Shown in pieces: positions 13,819-40,734 of a DNA stretch of 64,000 nt. Source of the stretch: Anaerolineaceae bacterium (lineage in GTDB: Bacteria; Chloroflexota; Anaerolineae; Anaerolineales; Anaerolineaceae); assembly GCA_029265815.1 (NCBI GenBank), contig JAJUGU010000004.1:186001-250000 (forward strand), given 5' to 3'. The position numbers and the translations under genes were made by a program. The notes under the pieces were generated by a model. It searched no databases, had not been told where the DNA came from, and saw nothing but the letters and a program-made list of their open reading frames with translations. Every line of letters starts with the position of its first letter. Positions within the stretch are counted from its first letter, which is position 1.

Positions 13819-14556
13819 ATGGAAGATGAATCCCCGAGGATGACATTCTTAGGTCACATCAATGAGTTGCGCAGGCGTCTTCTCGTATGCGTGATTGCTC
13901 TGGCAGTGGCAATTATCGCCAGTTTTGCCTTCAGCCAAAAAATCGCGGAATTCCTTGCGGAACCAATCGGTGGCCTTTCAGCAATGTCATCCATCGACGT
14001 GACTGAAAATGTCTCGGCCTTCATGAAAATCTCGCTGCTCACCGGTGTGGTGATTGCTTTTCCGATCGTTCTCTTTGAGATCATCGCCTTCATCATGCCA
14101 GGCCTTACCCCCAAAGAACGCAAGTGGATCTGGGTGGTGATTCCTTTCGCTACCGTGTTTTTTGTTAGCGGAGTGGCGTTCTCATACTTCTTTATGCTTC
14201 CAACAGCGCTTCCTTTTTTATTGAACTTCATGGGTATCTCAACCGCGCCTCGTCCCAGCACATATTTCGGATTTGTTTTAAACCTGATGTTCTGGGTTGG
14301 AATTTGTTTTGAGATGCCCTTGATCTTTTATGTTTTAGCCCGGCTTCACGTCGTTTCTGCAAAGCAACTCGCTAAACAGTGGCGCATTGCGCTCCTTGCG
14401 TCAGCAGTGTTGGCTGCGCTCATCACCCCCACGCCAGATCCAGTGAACATGGGTTTAATGACACTTCCTCTCTTCTTGCTTTACCTCCTCAGTATCATTT
14501 TCGCTTATGCTGCATGGCGGCCCAAAAAAGAAACCGCGGAAGAAAATGTTGGGTAA
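13819..14556 (+). CDS. tatC: Sec-independent translocase subunit TatC
   Basis: A 245-residue protein with six membrane helices. The N-terminus MTFLGHINELRRRLL is the conserved cytoplasmic segment that binds the twin-arginine signal, and the first periplasmic loop has the family's conserved proline-rich FLAEPIGGL segment. TPTPDPVNM near residue 200 is also typical. TatC is the receptor of the Tat system, which exports folded proteins with their cofactors. It is followed by tatA and tatB. Likely clients in this window are the metallophosphoesterase at 27510 and the DUF4405 cytochrome at 39808. Confidence 0.96.
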   Translation: MEDESPRMTFLGHINELRRRLLVCVIALAVAIIASFAFSQKIAEFLAEPIGGLSAMSSIDVTENVSAFMKISLLTGVVIAFPIVLFEIIAFIMPGLTPKERKWIWVVIPFATVFFVSGVAFSYFFMLPTALPFLLNFMGISTAPRPSTYFGFVLNLMFWVGICFEMPLIFYVLARLHVVSAKQLAKQWRIALLASAVLAALITPTPDPVNMGLMTLPLFLLYLLSIIFAYAAWRPKKETAEENVG

Positions 14557-14634: not shown

Positions 14635-14826
14635 ATGCCATTCAGACTAGGTGTTCCTGAATTAATCATCATCCTCGTAATCGTTATTCTCCTGTTCGGT
14701 GTCGGCCGTGTCACTAAACTTGGCGGAGAGCTCGGCAGCGCGATCAAGTCTTTCCGTAAAGGAATCAAAGACGAGGACAAATCCGACGCTAAGACCGAAG
14801 AAAAAGAAGAGACTAAATCAGAATAA
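14635..14826 (+). CDS. tatA: Twin-arginine translocase subunit TatA
   Basis: A 63-residue protein: one N-terminal membrane helix (residues 5-20), the Phe-Gly hinge (LLFGVGRV), an amphipathic helix with [16 protein letters not shown], and a charged tail of Lys/Glu. TatA multimerises to form the passage for folded proteins. AAGGAGTAAGAAT precedes the ATG. It lies 78 bases after tatC and 68 bases before the tatB-like gene, consistent with one transcription unit. Confidence 0.93.
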
Positions 14827-14894: not shown

Positions 14895-15314
14895 ATGAAA
14901 TTCTTTAACCTCGGTCTGTCTGAGATTATCTTCATTATCATTATCGCCCTGATCATTTTTGGCCCTGAGAATATGGTTAAAACAGCCAAAGATGCAGGCA
15001 AACTGGTCCGCAAGATGACCAAATCACCCTATTGGAAAGAAGTCTGGGCGACCAAACGAGAATTGAATGAATTACCAAAAATGCTGGTTAAGGAAGCGGA
15101 ACTCGATGAAACAATCCGAGACCTGAACAAGGAAACTCAGAAAATGTCCAGCTCGGTGACCGCCTCGGTAACAGAATTAATCAAAGAGGTTGAAGAACCA
15201 ATCAAGAAAACAGATGGCGAGCTGAAGAGAGAAACTGCCGCCCTTACCCCTCAACCTGAAAAAGCAGTCTCAACAGACGAGGGAGCAGCAGAAGAAGATA
15301 AGAAATCTTCGTAA
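14895..15314 (+). CDS. tatB: TatB-like subunit of the twin-arginine translocase
   Basis: A 139-residue protein with an N-terminal membrane helix (residues 8-22), the FGPENM hinge containing the Gly-Pro typical of TatB, an amphipathic helix and a long charged, partly coiled-coil C-terminal region. In TatABC systems TatB partners TatC in signal-peptide recognition. Assignment to TatB rather than a second TatA rests on the Gly-Pro hinge and the longer tail. Two hairpins follow the stop. Confidence 0.8.
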   Translation: MKFFNLGLSEIIFIIIIALIIFGPENMVKTAKDAGKLVRKMTKSPYWKEVWATKRELNELPKMLVKEAELDETIRDLNKETQKMSSSVTASVTELIKEVEEPIKKTDGELKRETAALTPQPEKAVSTDEGAAEEDKKSS

Positions 15315-15423: not shown

Positions 15424-16023
15424 TCAATCGATCGTACCCCGGGGTTCGATCTCTTCACCGACCATCCGCTGACCACCGTTATCGTGGCAGCTTGAACAGA
15501 AATCGATCTGGTCACCGTGAGACACATGACAGGTTTTACAATCCAACTGACCATTATGATTCTTGTGTGGATTTTTCGCCAGAAAATCAGTGGAATTGGC
15601 TAAATGCTCATAGCTGATGTGGCATTTCAGACAGAGGTCATTGCCATAGCTGACTGGAAGTAACTTTCCTTCACTGTCCACAGTATAGTTGCCCAAAACA
15701 AATTTAATCCCACTGCTGATTTCAGCCTGAACCGGATAATCATGACACTCCTTGCATTCCACTCCCGCTTGATAGTGAACATTATCCAGGTCGTTACTTG
15801 TCAAATAAGAAGTAACGTTGGGTTCCATGATGTGGCAGGTGGCGCAGAACTCAGGGCTGGTGTTGGAAAGGTGAATCAGGTACCCGCCTCCTGCTCCTCC
15901 TGCAACAACGAGCACCAGCACAATAATCCCAATGATGGTCCAAACGCCCTTTTTCTTGTTTTTCTTTTTTAGTTCATCGGCCGGGGGAATTTCTTTATTC
16001 TCAACAGGTAGATTTTCAGTCAT
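15424..16023 (-). CDS. Pentaheme NrfH/NapC-like membrane-anchored cytochrome c
   Basis: A 199-residue protein: charged N-terminus, one membrane helix (residues 26-50), then an exported domain with five CxxCH haem motifs at residues 60, 90, 131, 162 and 176. The first is CATCHIM, the CxxCHxM pattern of NrfH, where Met ligates the first haem. NrfH/NapC proteins take electrons from quinol and pass them to periplasmic reductases; most have four haems and about 160 residues, so the fifth site is extra. No nrfA or other reductase is adjacent. It diverges from the ccm operon, whose products would mature it. AGAAAGGATC lies before the ATG. Confidence 0.85.
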   Translation of the reverse strand: MTENLPVENKEIPPADELKKKNKKKGVWTIIGIIVLVLVVAGGAGGGYLIHLSNTSPEFCATCHIMEPNVTSYLTSNDLDNVHYQAGVECKECHDYPVQAEISSGIKFVLGNYTVDSEGKLLPVSYGNDLCLKCHISYEHLANSTDFLAKNPHKNHNGQLDCKTCHVSHGDQIDFCSSCHDNGGQRMVGEEIEPRGTID

Positions 16024-35929: not shown

Positions 35930-36820
35930 ATGAAACGGGGTTTGCTCATCTTGATTGTCGTGATACTTGTTTTCAGTCTTGCGAGTTGTAACTTTCCATT
36001 GGCCGGCGGTCAGAGCGGATCAGATTCGGCTGTTAAAACCGCTGTGGCTCTCAGTGTAGCGCTAACGCAGCTGGCAGCAACGCAGGCTGCTGTGATTACA
36101 CCGGCGCAATCCACTCCTGATCTTCCCACAGCCCTTCCTGCCACTGCCTTACCCACAGCCACCCTGCCGCCCACGATGACCCCCACGCTGGCCGGTGTTT
36201 GGCTAACGGTTCTTGAAAACACCAACTGTCGGTCAGGCCCTGGAACCATGTACGACTGGGTAACCCTCATCAGCGCAGGCCAGACAGTTGAAGCGCTAGC
36301 GCGCAACCCTGTTAATGACTATTATTACGTGCGCAACCCCAACTCTTCCAGTGGATTCTGCTGGCTGTGGAGCCAGTATTCGTCCGTTTCTGGCAATATA
36401 ACAACCCTGCCCGTTTTCACTCCCCAGCCGACACCCACATTGGCCAGCCCTACCCCTGCCGCCGACCTCTCAATAAACTACGAAGGGCTTGAATCCTGTG
36501 CCCCGCAGTATGCACTTTTATTCAAGATTAAGAATACCGGCGATATAACCTGGCAGTCAATCAAGATCGTTATCAAAGATAACACCACTTCAACTACCTT
36601 CACTCACCAGAGCGATGTTTTCAAGGGAGTATCAGGATGTGATTTCACTGCGTCTCAGAATGACCTGACCAAAGGCGAAGAATCTTATGTTGCCAATGTA
36701 AATCCAGGACAGTTCGATTACGATCCAACAGGCCACAGTCTTAAAGTAACTATCACGGTCTATGCTAAAGATGGGCTCACCGGCACTTCATTTTCAAAAA
36801 CAATTTCAGTTACACCATAA
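35930..36820 (+). CDS. SH3-domain lipoprotein (first of a tandem pair)
   Basis: A 296-residue lipoprotein with lipobox LASC (Cys near residue 24), a low-complexity Ala/Thr/Pro linker, a bacterial SH3 domain (about 88-150, NCRSGPGTMYDWVTLISAGQ), a second Pro/Thr linker, and a beta-sandwich C-terminal domain (about 180-296, CAPQYALLFKIKNTGDITWQSI) like extracellular adhesion modules. It is surface-bound and may hold cell-wall or polymer ligands. It is followed 21 bases later by a paralogue of the same architecture. Confidence 0.85.
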   Translation: MKRGLLILIVVILVFSLASCNFPLAGGQSGSDSAVKTAVALSVALTQLAATQAAVITPAQSTPDLPTALPATALPTATLPPTMTPTLAGVWLTVLENTNCRSGPGTMYDWVTLISAGQTVEALARNPVNDYYYVRNPNSSSGFCWLWSQYSSVSGNITTLPVFTPQPTPTLASPTPAADLSINYEGLESCAPQYALLFKIKNTGDITWQSIKIVIKDNTTSTTFTHQSDVFKGVSGCDFTASQNDLTKGEESYVANVNPGQFDYDPTGHSLKVTITVYAKDGLTGTSFSKTISVTP

Positions 36821-36841
36821 AGGAACTTTCAAGAGGAAAAA

Positions 36842-37717
36842 ATGAAAAAAACATCCATATTCTTATCCATTGTTTTACTGTTATCGCTGGTCCTTTCCGC
36901 CTGCCAGAATACCGGCGCCAAACCTACGCCCGTCGATGAAAACGCCTTCGCAACACTCGTTGCTGGAACTTTAACCGCCGTTGCCGCTCAAGCGCAACAG
37001 ACCCTTGATGCTATTCCAACAGAGACAGCCACAGAAGCCCCCACCTCAACCCCGGCACCCACACTGACGCCCACTAAAGAGATCGTCATGCTAACGATCA
37101 ACCAAGACACAAACTGCCGCAAAGGGGCGTCGACCATATTCCCGGTTGAAGTCACTATTAAGTCAGGTTCTGAAGTGGTCATGCTTGGACGCAACCGCGA
37201 CAATAGCTTCTATTACGTTCAGAACCCTGAGGATACAACAGAAGCCTGCTGGATCTGGGCAAAATATGCGACAACCACTCAGGATATTGAGCTGATGCCA
37301 GTATTCACCCCCGTACCCACTCCCCTTCCGACCAGCACGCCCACCCTGCCTCCCTTCCCGCAGTACACAGCTGTATATTCAGGGTTGACCGCGTGCGGTG
37401 CTGAATACGCAGCGAATTTTAATATTACCAATATCGGTAATCTGACGATGGAGTCCATCCAAATCAAACTCAAGGTTGATGGTGTTGGCACTTTCACTCA
37501 CAAGAGCGACTCTTTTACCCAGTATAGCGGCGGAGCCTTGTATTTATCACAAGACGATCTAACCCCCGGTGAATCCGCTGTCGTCTCTACTTGTTCTCCC
37601 GGCAGCATCACATCCGATCCAACAAACCTCAACGTTACAGCTGAAATCACTATTTGCACCAAAGAAAATCTCAGCGGTGCGTGTACCTCTCAAACACTCG
37701 CTTTCAAGCCGCATTAA
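36842..37717 (+). CDS. SH3-domain lipoprotein (second of a tandem pair)
   Basis: A 291-residue paralogue of the preceding gene: lipobox LSAC, Thr/Pro linker, SH3 domain with NCRKGASTIFPVEVTIKSGS and a CWIWAKY end, second linker, and the same C-terminal beta domain starting CGAEYAANFNITNIGNLTMESI. The two share order and length but differ through most residues, so the duplication is old. AAGAGG precedes the ATG; both are likely on one transcript ending at the hairpin at 37741. Confidence 0.85.
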   Translation: MKKTSIFLSIVLLLSLVLSACQNTGAKPTPVDENAFATLVAGTLTAVAAQAQQTLDAIPTETATEAPTSTPAPTLTPTKEIVMLTINQDTNCRKGASTIFPVEVTIKSGSEVVMLGRNRDNSFYYVQNPEDTTEACWIWAKYATTTQDIELMPVFTPVPTPLPTSTPTLPPFPQYTAVYSGLTACGAEYAANFNITNIGNLTMESIQIKLKVDGVGTFTHKSDSFTQYSGGALYLSQDDLTPGESAVVSTCSPGSITSDPTNLNVTAEITICTKENLSGACTSQTLAFKPH

Positions 37718-39694: not shown

Positions 39695-39807
39695 TTCAGC
39701 TTAATACTGCTTTCTTAAACAATTCGGTATCTTAGTCTATGAGAAAAAACAGGATTGGTCAAGAACTGACGACCAATCCTGTGATTGATTTGCCTCTCAG
39801 GTTGTTC

Positions 39808-40734
39808 TTATATGCATTCACCCAGATCACATTTACCATTGCCATTTGCATCTGTATATCGCCTGCAGTGCCCCGGGTATGAACAACCCCTGCGGCATTG
39901 AATCATGCAATAGGTACTTGTTTCACTGGTGGCAATCGCCGGGTTGACTTGAGTACCCGTTTGAGTTGGCGCAACGGTGGGTTCATCTTCCAGAGTGATG
40001 GTGACCGCCTGACGCGTTGGTTGATCCGTGGATGTGCTGAATACTGCAGCAGATTGCACTGTCGCAGTATTCGTAGCTGTCAGCTGGGAGATTAAAACAG
40101 GTTCATCGGCCGCCTCCGCCCAGGCGACTTTACCATCTGAGAATACATTGGATACAGCCAGCAGCGACCCTAGACCCACCAGACCCATCGCCGCCAGAAA
40201 CTGACGCCGGTCGACTGCTTCGCGGTCTTCAGAATGTTGCCTTCTGGATGGTTCAACTTCCACCGATACCGGCTCCATTTGATGCAAAGATATGGTATGA
40301 AAAGAAAATATCCTTTTCGTTGTATTCACCACCCAGCGCCAGTGCAGACCAATCTTTAATACGGCTAGTGCCAGTACCGTTACGGCAGAATAAATATGAA
40401 TGCCCACCCACACGGTGTAATTTGATAGAGCAAGATTGAACCAGGTAGAGATCATCAACCCGGTCTCCAGGATAATCACTGCGCCGAGCATAATTATGAA
40501 ATCGATCACGTAGTATAGCCTGCTGCGCATATTTGTACCTTTAATAAATCGTGCTGTAACACTTTTTACCCAATCCCAGTGCATCATCAGGTGAGCTCCT
40601 GCCAGTAGTAAGACAATCACACCAAGCCATTGATGAACCATAACACCGGTCAAATTAAGATAGAAACACAACAGAAATCCGATCAGCAACAACAGGTCAA
40701 CGACCCACTTGTTTATTGATTTACTTGTTTTCAT
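39808..40734 (-). CDS. DUF4405-type cytochrome b with internal Tat motif and EF-hand-like Cys-rich tail
   Basis: A 308-residue protein. Residues 8-135 contain four helices with His in each (H34, H48/H52, H113, H131), the pattern of DUF4405 di-haem membrane cytochromes. A cytoplasmic loop leads to VDRRQFLAAMG (Arg 176-177), a twin-arginine motif followed by a fifth helix (181-197). The exported part has a Thr/Ala/Pro linker and then six cysteines (276, 280, 284, 290, 302, 307) around a loop DANGNGKCDLGE matching a calcium-binding EF-hand loop. ATG 40734 follows GAGGTTATCC, so it is preferred over upstream starts. Sec may insert the first four helices, Tat the last. Confidence 0.75.
   Translation of the reverse strand: MKTSKSINKWVVDLLLLIGFLLCFYLNLTGVMVHQWLGVIVLLLAGAHLMMHWDWVKSVTARFIKGTNMRSRLYYVIDFIIMLGAVIILETGLMISTWFNLALSNYTVWVGIHIYSAVTVLALAVLKIGLHWRWVVNTTKRIFSFHTISLHQMEPVSVEVEPSRRQHSEDREAVDRRQFLAAMGLVGLGSLLAVSNVFSDGKVAWAEAADEPVLISQLTATNTATVQSAAVFSTSTDQPTRQAVTITLEDEPTVAPTQTGTQVNPAIATSETSTYCMIQCRRGCSYPGHCRRYTDANGNGKCDLGECI

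Follow-up and report, generated by a model that had tools for sequence, protein, structure and literature searches.

A gene on contig JAJUGU010000004.1 of an Anaerolineaceae bacterium (GenBank assembly GCA_029265815.1) encodes a polytopic cytochrome with an internal twin-arginine (RR) motif directly before its last helix and a cysteine-rich tail behind it. This raises the questions whether the last helix is handed to the Tat pathway, how such a signal came to lie inside a membrane protein and what the tail does. We analysed the gene within a stretch of 64,000 nucleotides (positions 186,001 to 250,000 of the contig), here called the window. A preliminary description had proposed that four haem-binding helices place the RR segment in the cytoplasm ahead of a fifth helix, in the layout of actinobacterial Rieske proteins, that use of Tat points to a tail folded with a cofactor, and that this combination is not known from described DUF4405 proteins.

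Gene and protein layout

Translation of the open reading frame and analysis of its flanks revealed the following features:

39808..40734, minus strand: CDS of the cytochrome-tail fusion including the stop codon, 308 aa, ATG at 40734
40645..40710, minus strand: helix 1, about residues 9-30 by hydropathy, 4-29 in the AlphaFold model
40579..40635, minus strand: helix 2, about residues 34-52, with invariant His34, His48 and His52 (hydropathy, model, alignment)
40444..40512, minus strand: helix 3, about residues 75-97 (hydropathy and AlphaFold model)
40339..40419, minus strand: helix 4, about residues 106-132, with invariant His113 and His131 (hydropathy, model, alignment)
40195..40209, minus strand: twin-arginine motif RRQFL (residues 176-180) at the predicted cytoplasmic end of helix 5, recognised by RR conservation
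40141..40200, minus strand: helix 5, about residues 179-198, predicted uncleaved Tat anchor of low hydrophobicity
39910..40140, minus strand: Thr/Ala/Ser/Pro-rich, Cys-free linker (residues 199-275)
39814..39909, minus strand: Cys-rich tail (residues 276-307) with core C280, C284, C290 and C302 and outer pair C276/C307
39817..39852, minus strand: EF-hand-like loop DANGNGKCDLGE (residues 295-306)
39749..39782, minus strand: terminator-like hairpin of 13 pairs just past the stop codon

The coding span without the stop covers 39811-40734 on the minus strand. The positions given in the preliminary description for the gene, RRQFL, the cysteines and the loop are exact in the translated frame. An alignment of 19 full-length proteins, window protein included, places its ATG with the starts of the other 18. 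Hydropathy revealed five hydrophobic segments, and an AlphaFold run on two sequences gave the same helices; the model has low confidence (mean pLDDT 45), is too poor for the tail or the haem geometry and was used for helix limits only. The hairpin is accompanied by a T run 3' of the gene (two such sites were found, against a mean of 1.2 in shuffles) and the gene upstream is divergent, which makes transcription of the fusion gene on its own probable. Two related lipoprotein-like genes lie at 35930-37717 (plus strand) of the window, and genes of this kind recur close to the cytochrome in relatives from the genus, with 22 in one cluster.

Occurrence in Chloroflexota

Whole genomes were searched in Chloroflexota, and other phyla through a peptide-pattern search of GTDB contigs, which gave two loci, one of them a copy of a genome already counted. 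A search of the genome itself and 60 relatives gave hits at E<=1e-3 in 38 of the 61, in many cases to four-helix proteins that lack the tail. With the tail profile, 45 of 400 genomes of the order (E<=1e-3) and 33 of 147 genomes of the family scored, and with a related profile 6 of 400 genomes of the phylum (E<=1e-4); at E<=0.01 the phylum sample gave 18 of 400, of which 12 (E 6.7e-4 or worse) were treated as chance. Plasmids and viral contigs held no relative.

We read 43 different fusion ORFs in Chloroflexota genomes. Forty are intact, including that of the window; the others are cut by a gap (L107), degenerate (L109) or interrupted by a stop (L021). The 45 order genomes comprise 34 with an intact fusion, two with a two-gene form, six with a broken or remnant copy (G022, G053, G590, G631, G674, G702) and three whose gene runs into a contig end or gap (G461, G493, G599). 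Other intact fusions came from the search of the genome's own relatives (four) and from the phylum sample (two), and two further ones (G774, G784) were identified solely by the length of their ORFs. In two broken copies (L105 5314-6136, L112 4584-5388) the reading frame stays open through the four cytochrome helices and breaks at the RR helix and tail or shortly ahead of them.

An ABC transporter gene adjoins the fusion in all nine own-genus loci examined (of 12 genus genomes with the fusion). The seven loci of other genera with flanks (L064-L069, L073) have no shared neighbour, so this adjacency represents inherited gene order. On these loci, a conserved operon partner was rejected.

The twin-arginine motif and predicted topology

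Lack of conservation of the two arginines had been named beforehand as grounds for rejecting the proposal, which withstood this check. The arginines are kept in 39 of the 40 intact members (L082 has RK), Phe179 in 36 and Leu180 in 39. In 27 of the 30 columns of loop 4-5 (144-173; exceptions 155, 156 and 162) the commonest letter reaches at most 35%, and RR-x-F-L stays while the remaining basic residues of this loop vary, so that the motif is no product of chance.

Across the 40 intact members, mean K+R is 2.1 in the N-terminus, 4.25 in loop 2-3 and 7.1 in loop 4-5 (inside), versus 0.0 in loop 1-2 and 0.02 in loop 3-4 (outside). These counts follow the positive-inside rule and predict a cytoplasmic RR; together with hydropathy they uphold the proposed order of a cytoplasmic RR segment followed by a fifth helix. 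As in known dual-targeted proteins, an even number of transmembrane helices (TM) precedes RR and one follows it, with the N-terminus inside (hydropathy, model and charges); the loop ahead of RR measures 22-46 aa, where at least 8 aa are expected; and RR immediately precedes the last TM (39 of 40 intact members). On the Hessa scale, with approximate weights, the hydrophobicity of helix 5 is below that of helix 3 in all 40 proteins, of helix 4 in 32, of helix 1 in 31 and of helix 2 in 20, so that the expected low hydrophobicity of the last TM is found except against helix 2.

Other observations fit Tat use less well. The net charge of the 12 residues after helix 5 averages -0.4, close to zero, and the positive cluster described for dual-targeted proteins is not evident there. 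The window protein has no TAT profile match in Pfam or NCBIfam. Pfam TAT_signal matched 11 of the 19 aligned members at E<=1 and TIGR01409 matched 12 of 19 at E<=0.1, and matches in relatives are mostly under the cut-off. Use of Tat by the last helix is nevertheless well supported by comparison, on account of the conserved RR, of TAT profile hits in the majority of members and of the two-gene homologues, described below, whose RR signal is N-terminal.

The window also contains the TatABC set reported for it:

13819..14556, plus strand: TatC (PF00902, 200.6 bits)
14635..14826, plus strand: TatA-like small protein, named by eye from the ORF
14895..15314, plus strand: TatB-like protein, named by eye from the ORF

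Co-occurrence of fusion and TatC was discarded as evidence; TatC is present in 56 of 61 relatives, which makes it uninformative. Adjoining the Tat genes, at 15424-16023 (minus strand), lies a gene for a membrane-anchored protein with five CxxCH motifs, NapC/NrfH-like by eye.

Two-gene forms and origin of the fusion

Four genomes encode a tail-less cytochrome and a separate module protein as same-strand neighbours: G019 (locus L075), G423 (L072), G692 (L103) and G757 (L104). The gap between the two genes is about 1-20 bp in L075, L072 and L103 and about 420 bp in L104. The separate proteins have an N-terminal RRRF, RRDF or RRKF, a lipobox-like Cys (by eye) and one to three tail modules. Three of the four show a weak Pfam Tat signal; that of L103 gave no TAT match at E<=1, which counts against the signal. 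The cytochromes of L103 (32.2 bits) and L075 (38 bits, only 111 aa) pass the DUF4405 cut-off, and those of L072 and L104 match the four-helix profile built here. Every one of the 44 intact cases read has the module either fused to such a cytochrome or close to one, and by this comparison the two are linked. The same three-gene set, which we take to resemble VTC, DUF4956 and CotH, adjoins the two-gene form in L103 (6783-9953) and L104 (7452-10656).

A tree computed from the four-helix part (60 rows) groups all 43 fusion rows, including two broken copies, in a single clade (98/98; 96% of 200 bootstrap trees, from a bootstrap not yet fully settled). Row L039_936, labelled tail-less, is the two-gene cytochrome of G423, and the tree omits the short L075 cytochrome. 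By comparison of these sequences, the fusion has a single origin. The conserved RR, the single fusion clade and the two-gene forms together indicate that the RR segment inside the protein is very probably a genuine Tat signal, gained when two genes fused.

Predicted haem helices and relation to DUF4405

Five histidines are found in all 40 intact members, three in helix 2 or at its ends (34, 48, 52) and two in helix 4 (113, 131); helices 1 and 3 are without an invariant His. The four haem-binding helices proposed at the outset need correction in this respect, the invariant histidines lying in two of them. The window protein is a predicted four-helix b-type cytochrome related to DUF4405 (PF14358), another protein of which was purified as a haem b protein (PMC11334425). 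It misses the DUF4405 gathering score (11.8 vs 26.7 bits); member L020 passes it (29.1 bits) as the sole one of ten members scored, and 17 of the 19 aligned members match at E<=1. We therefore file the family as related to DUF4405, not as a member of it.

A flavinylation partner was considered and dropped, an ApbE match being absent from the genome itself. Paralogues with two DUF4405-like two-helix units in tandem were seen in the same genome (L003 1309-2733) and in L034; the L003 paralogue runs on into a long acidic, exported-looking domain.

The linker and the Cys-rich module

The linker contains no Cys in any of the 40 intact members; the tail measures 32-33 residues and the whole exported part about 110. 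After helix 5, six cysteines are present in 37 of 40 members, four in L020 and L032 and five in L037, which lacks C302, a point against the explanation preferred below. Position 284 is Cys in 43/43 fusion ORFs and in 4/4 four-Cys separate modules, all four with this Cys three residues before PG, and Asp in 5/5 three-Cys separate modules; the match holds counting back from PG and is three residues off from the first Cys, the approach from which is three residues longer in three-Cys modules. Exchange of Cys and Asp is commoner for metal ligands than for disulphides, so its occurrence at core position 284 favours a metal site. Some separate modules have odd Cys totals, which pure disulphides do not explain.

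The outer pair behaves differently: C276 and C307 are missing together in the same three of 43 ORFs (L020, L032 and L021) and never singly, which suggests an added disulphide. The pair was probably gained jointly, since L020 and L032, lacking both, branch first (L021 is outside the tree).

The loop D295-x-N-x-N-G-x-C-D303-x-x-E306 has EF-hand spacing with the canonical 12 residues; Asp295 is found in 43, Asp303 in 42 and Glu306 in 41 of the 43 fusion ORFs. EF-hand_1 gave a sub-threshold match to relative L072 (20.2 bits, E=0.00038, cut-off 25.4) and another to L103, and no Pfam EF-hand match to the fusions (19 members). No relative of the tail turned up in Pfam, NCBIfam or PDB, and a search for a relative of solved structure returned none for the whole profile or for the tail.

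Proposed mechanism and alternatives

The whole is best explained by a Sec/Tat dual-inserted cytochrome with an externally tethered redox module, an account whose chances we rate as about even. We infer Tat transport itself, the haem pairing, electron transfer and a bound metal as follows. Sec would insert helices 1-4, which would bind two b haems through helices 2 and 4, with His34-His113 as the predicted outer pair and His48 or His52 with His131 as the inner one. RRQFL would hand helix 5 to the Tat pathway, helix 5 would remain as an uncleaved anchor, and the linker would position the Cys-rich module with its EF loop outside the membrane. Through the haem pair, as a wire across the membrane, electrons could reach the module or be drawn from it, the module being the tethered redox partner of the cytochrome. 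C280, C284 or Asp, C290 and C302 most likely hold a metal, the C276-C307 pair was most likely added later as a disulphide clamp, and the DxNxNGxCDxxE loop probably binds Ca2+. That no redox partner gene adjoins the fusion gene counts against this explanation. A more specific and rather doubtful version makes the module a minimal metal or Fe-S electron-transfer domain of about 30 residues with Cys/Asp-exchangeable ligands and a Ca2+ loop, loaded in the cytoplasm and exported by Tat, to hang by a flexible arm from the transmembrane b cytochrome as a swinging shuttle outside Chloroflexota cells, first as a separate lipoprotein and later fused.

The same topology and Tat insertion would also suit a tail that is a Ca2+-binding mini-domain braced by disulphides and free of redox metal, with a role in structure, wall binding or the sensing of Ca or thiols, which we consider possible though probably wrong. 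Tat would then carry a short, hydrophilic, mostly unstructured segment, with disulphides and Ca2+ added outside. According to PMC6708511, Tat tolerates unstructured hydrophilic segments of 100-120 residues, and the exported part lies within this limit, so Tat use alone is no proof of a cytoplasmic cofactor. Of the initial argument from Tat to a cofactor-folded tail, the first half thus holds well and the second is weaker. The even Cys number of 37 members (six) and of two others (four) among the 40, the joint presence or absence of C276/C307, the canonical loop spacing and a VKOR encoded in the genome itself fit a metal-free tail too, whereas the odd totals of the three-Cys modules with Asp at 284 and the place of the module on or beside an electron-carrying cytochrome in 44/44 intact cases speak for the redox reading.

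The remaining alternatives concern helix 5. It is highly unlikely that Sec inserts this helix and the arginines are only positive-inside charges: the TAT profiles miss the window protein and intact L082 has RK, as this would allow, but RR-x-F-L outlasts the drifting basic residues around it, the separate homologues begin with the same motif and helix 5 is the less hydrophobic in most comparisons. Most improbable is a polyprotein from which signal peptidase, cutting past helix 5, frees the tail. AxA-like sites are indeed present past helix 5 in 32 of 40 members (AWA in the case of the window protein), but shuffling the linkers yields them in 33.2 of 40; the observed count is no higher than this, and release was rejected; the separate forms, as lipoproteins by their lipobox (by eye), would moreover be held at the membrane.

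Comparison with known systems

The family would extend the small set of membrane proteins with Sec/Tat dual targeting, with a natural control in its fused and two-gene forms, and suggests that a Tat signal can become an internal helix through gene fusion. If the tail binds metal, it would be a very small redox domain; a metal-free tail would show Tat at work, in nature, on a short and largely unstructured segment of a polytopic protein. Both possibilities are relevant to the question why Tat is retained.

Sec/Tat dual insertion is established for Rieske, Sco3746 and polyferredoxin, and the latter two, of the same layout, were Tat-dependent (PMC5449189). Actinobacterial Rieske proteins, as described in PMC5449189 and PMC7317946, have their first helices inserted by Sec and the last one with the following domain by Tat, as proposed here; however, they have no b haem in their helices and carry a Rieske [2Fe-2S] domain. 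We saw no sequence relation to them: a Rieske [2Fe-2S] Pfam match is absent in the 19 members, and the Tat-signal model UCR_Fe-S_N is weak in two. The Rieske parallel was thus right in mechanism, but Sco3746 is the closer precedent, with four TM with predicted b-haem histidines, RR, TM5 and an exported cofactor domain; its family has an even helix number and RR directly before TM5 and includes Chloroflexi members (same source). The exported domain holds MoCo in Sco3746, whereas here it is the Cys/EF-loop module. A link to Chloroflexota MoCo proteins was rejected, the four-helix profile giving nothing at E below 0.5 in sampled Chloroflexota PF00174 loci (10/10 and 30/30). Among these proteins L156, L159 and L162 have several helices, RR before the last hydrophobic stretch and PF00174, without a match to the cytochrome profile, and are further candidates for Sec/Tat dual targeting.

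With the described DUF4405/FezC cytochromes the family shares a helix with conserved haem histidines; they are six-helix proteins tied to ApbE flavinylation or ferrosomes, and the available part of PMC11334425 mentions neither Tat helix nor tail for them. The layout, already described for Sco3746, is not new; module and gene family appear undescribed, the module, the family and the fused/two-gene pair not being found in open-access literature, a scope outside which the supplementary lists of PMC5449189 may contain such proteins.

EF-hand and Excalibur Ca2+ loops have the spacing of DxNxNGxCDxxE in common with the tail, which differs from them in the Cys at loop position 8, in its Cys-rich surroundings and in being covered by no Pfam family. 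In MsrPQ, a b-haem membrane protein likewise feeds a Tat-exported partner, there from separate genes and with a molybdenum partner.
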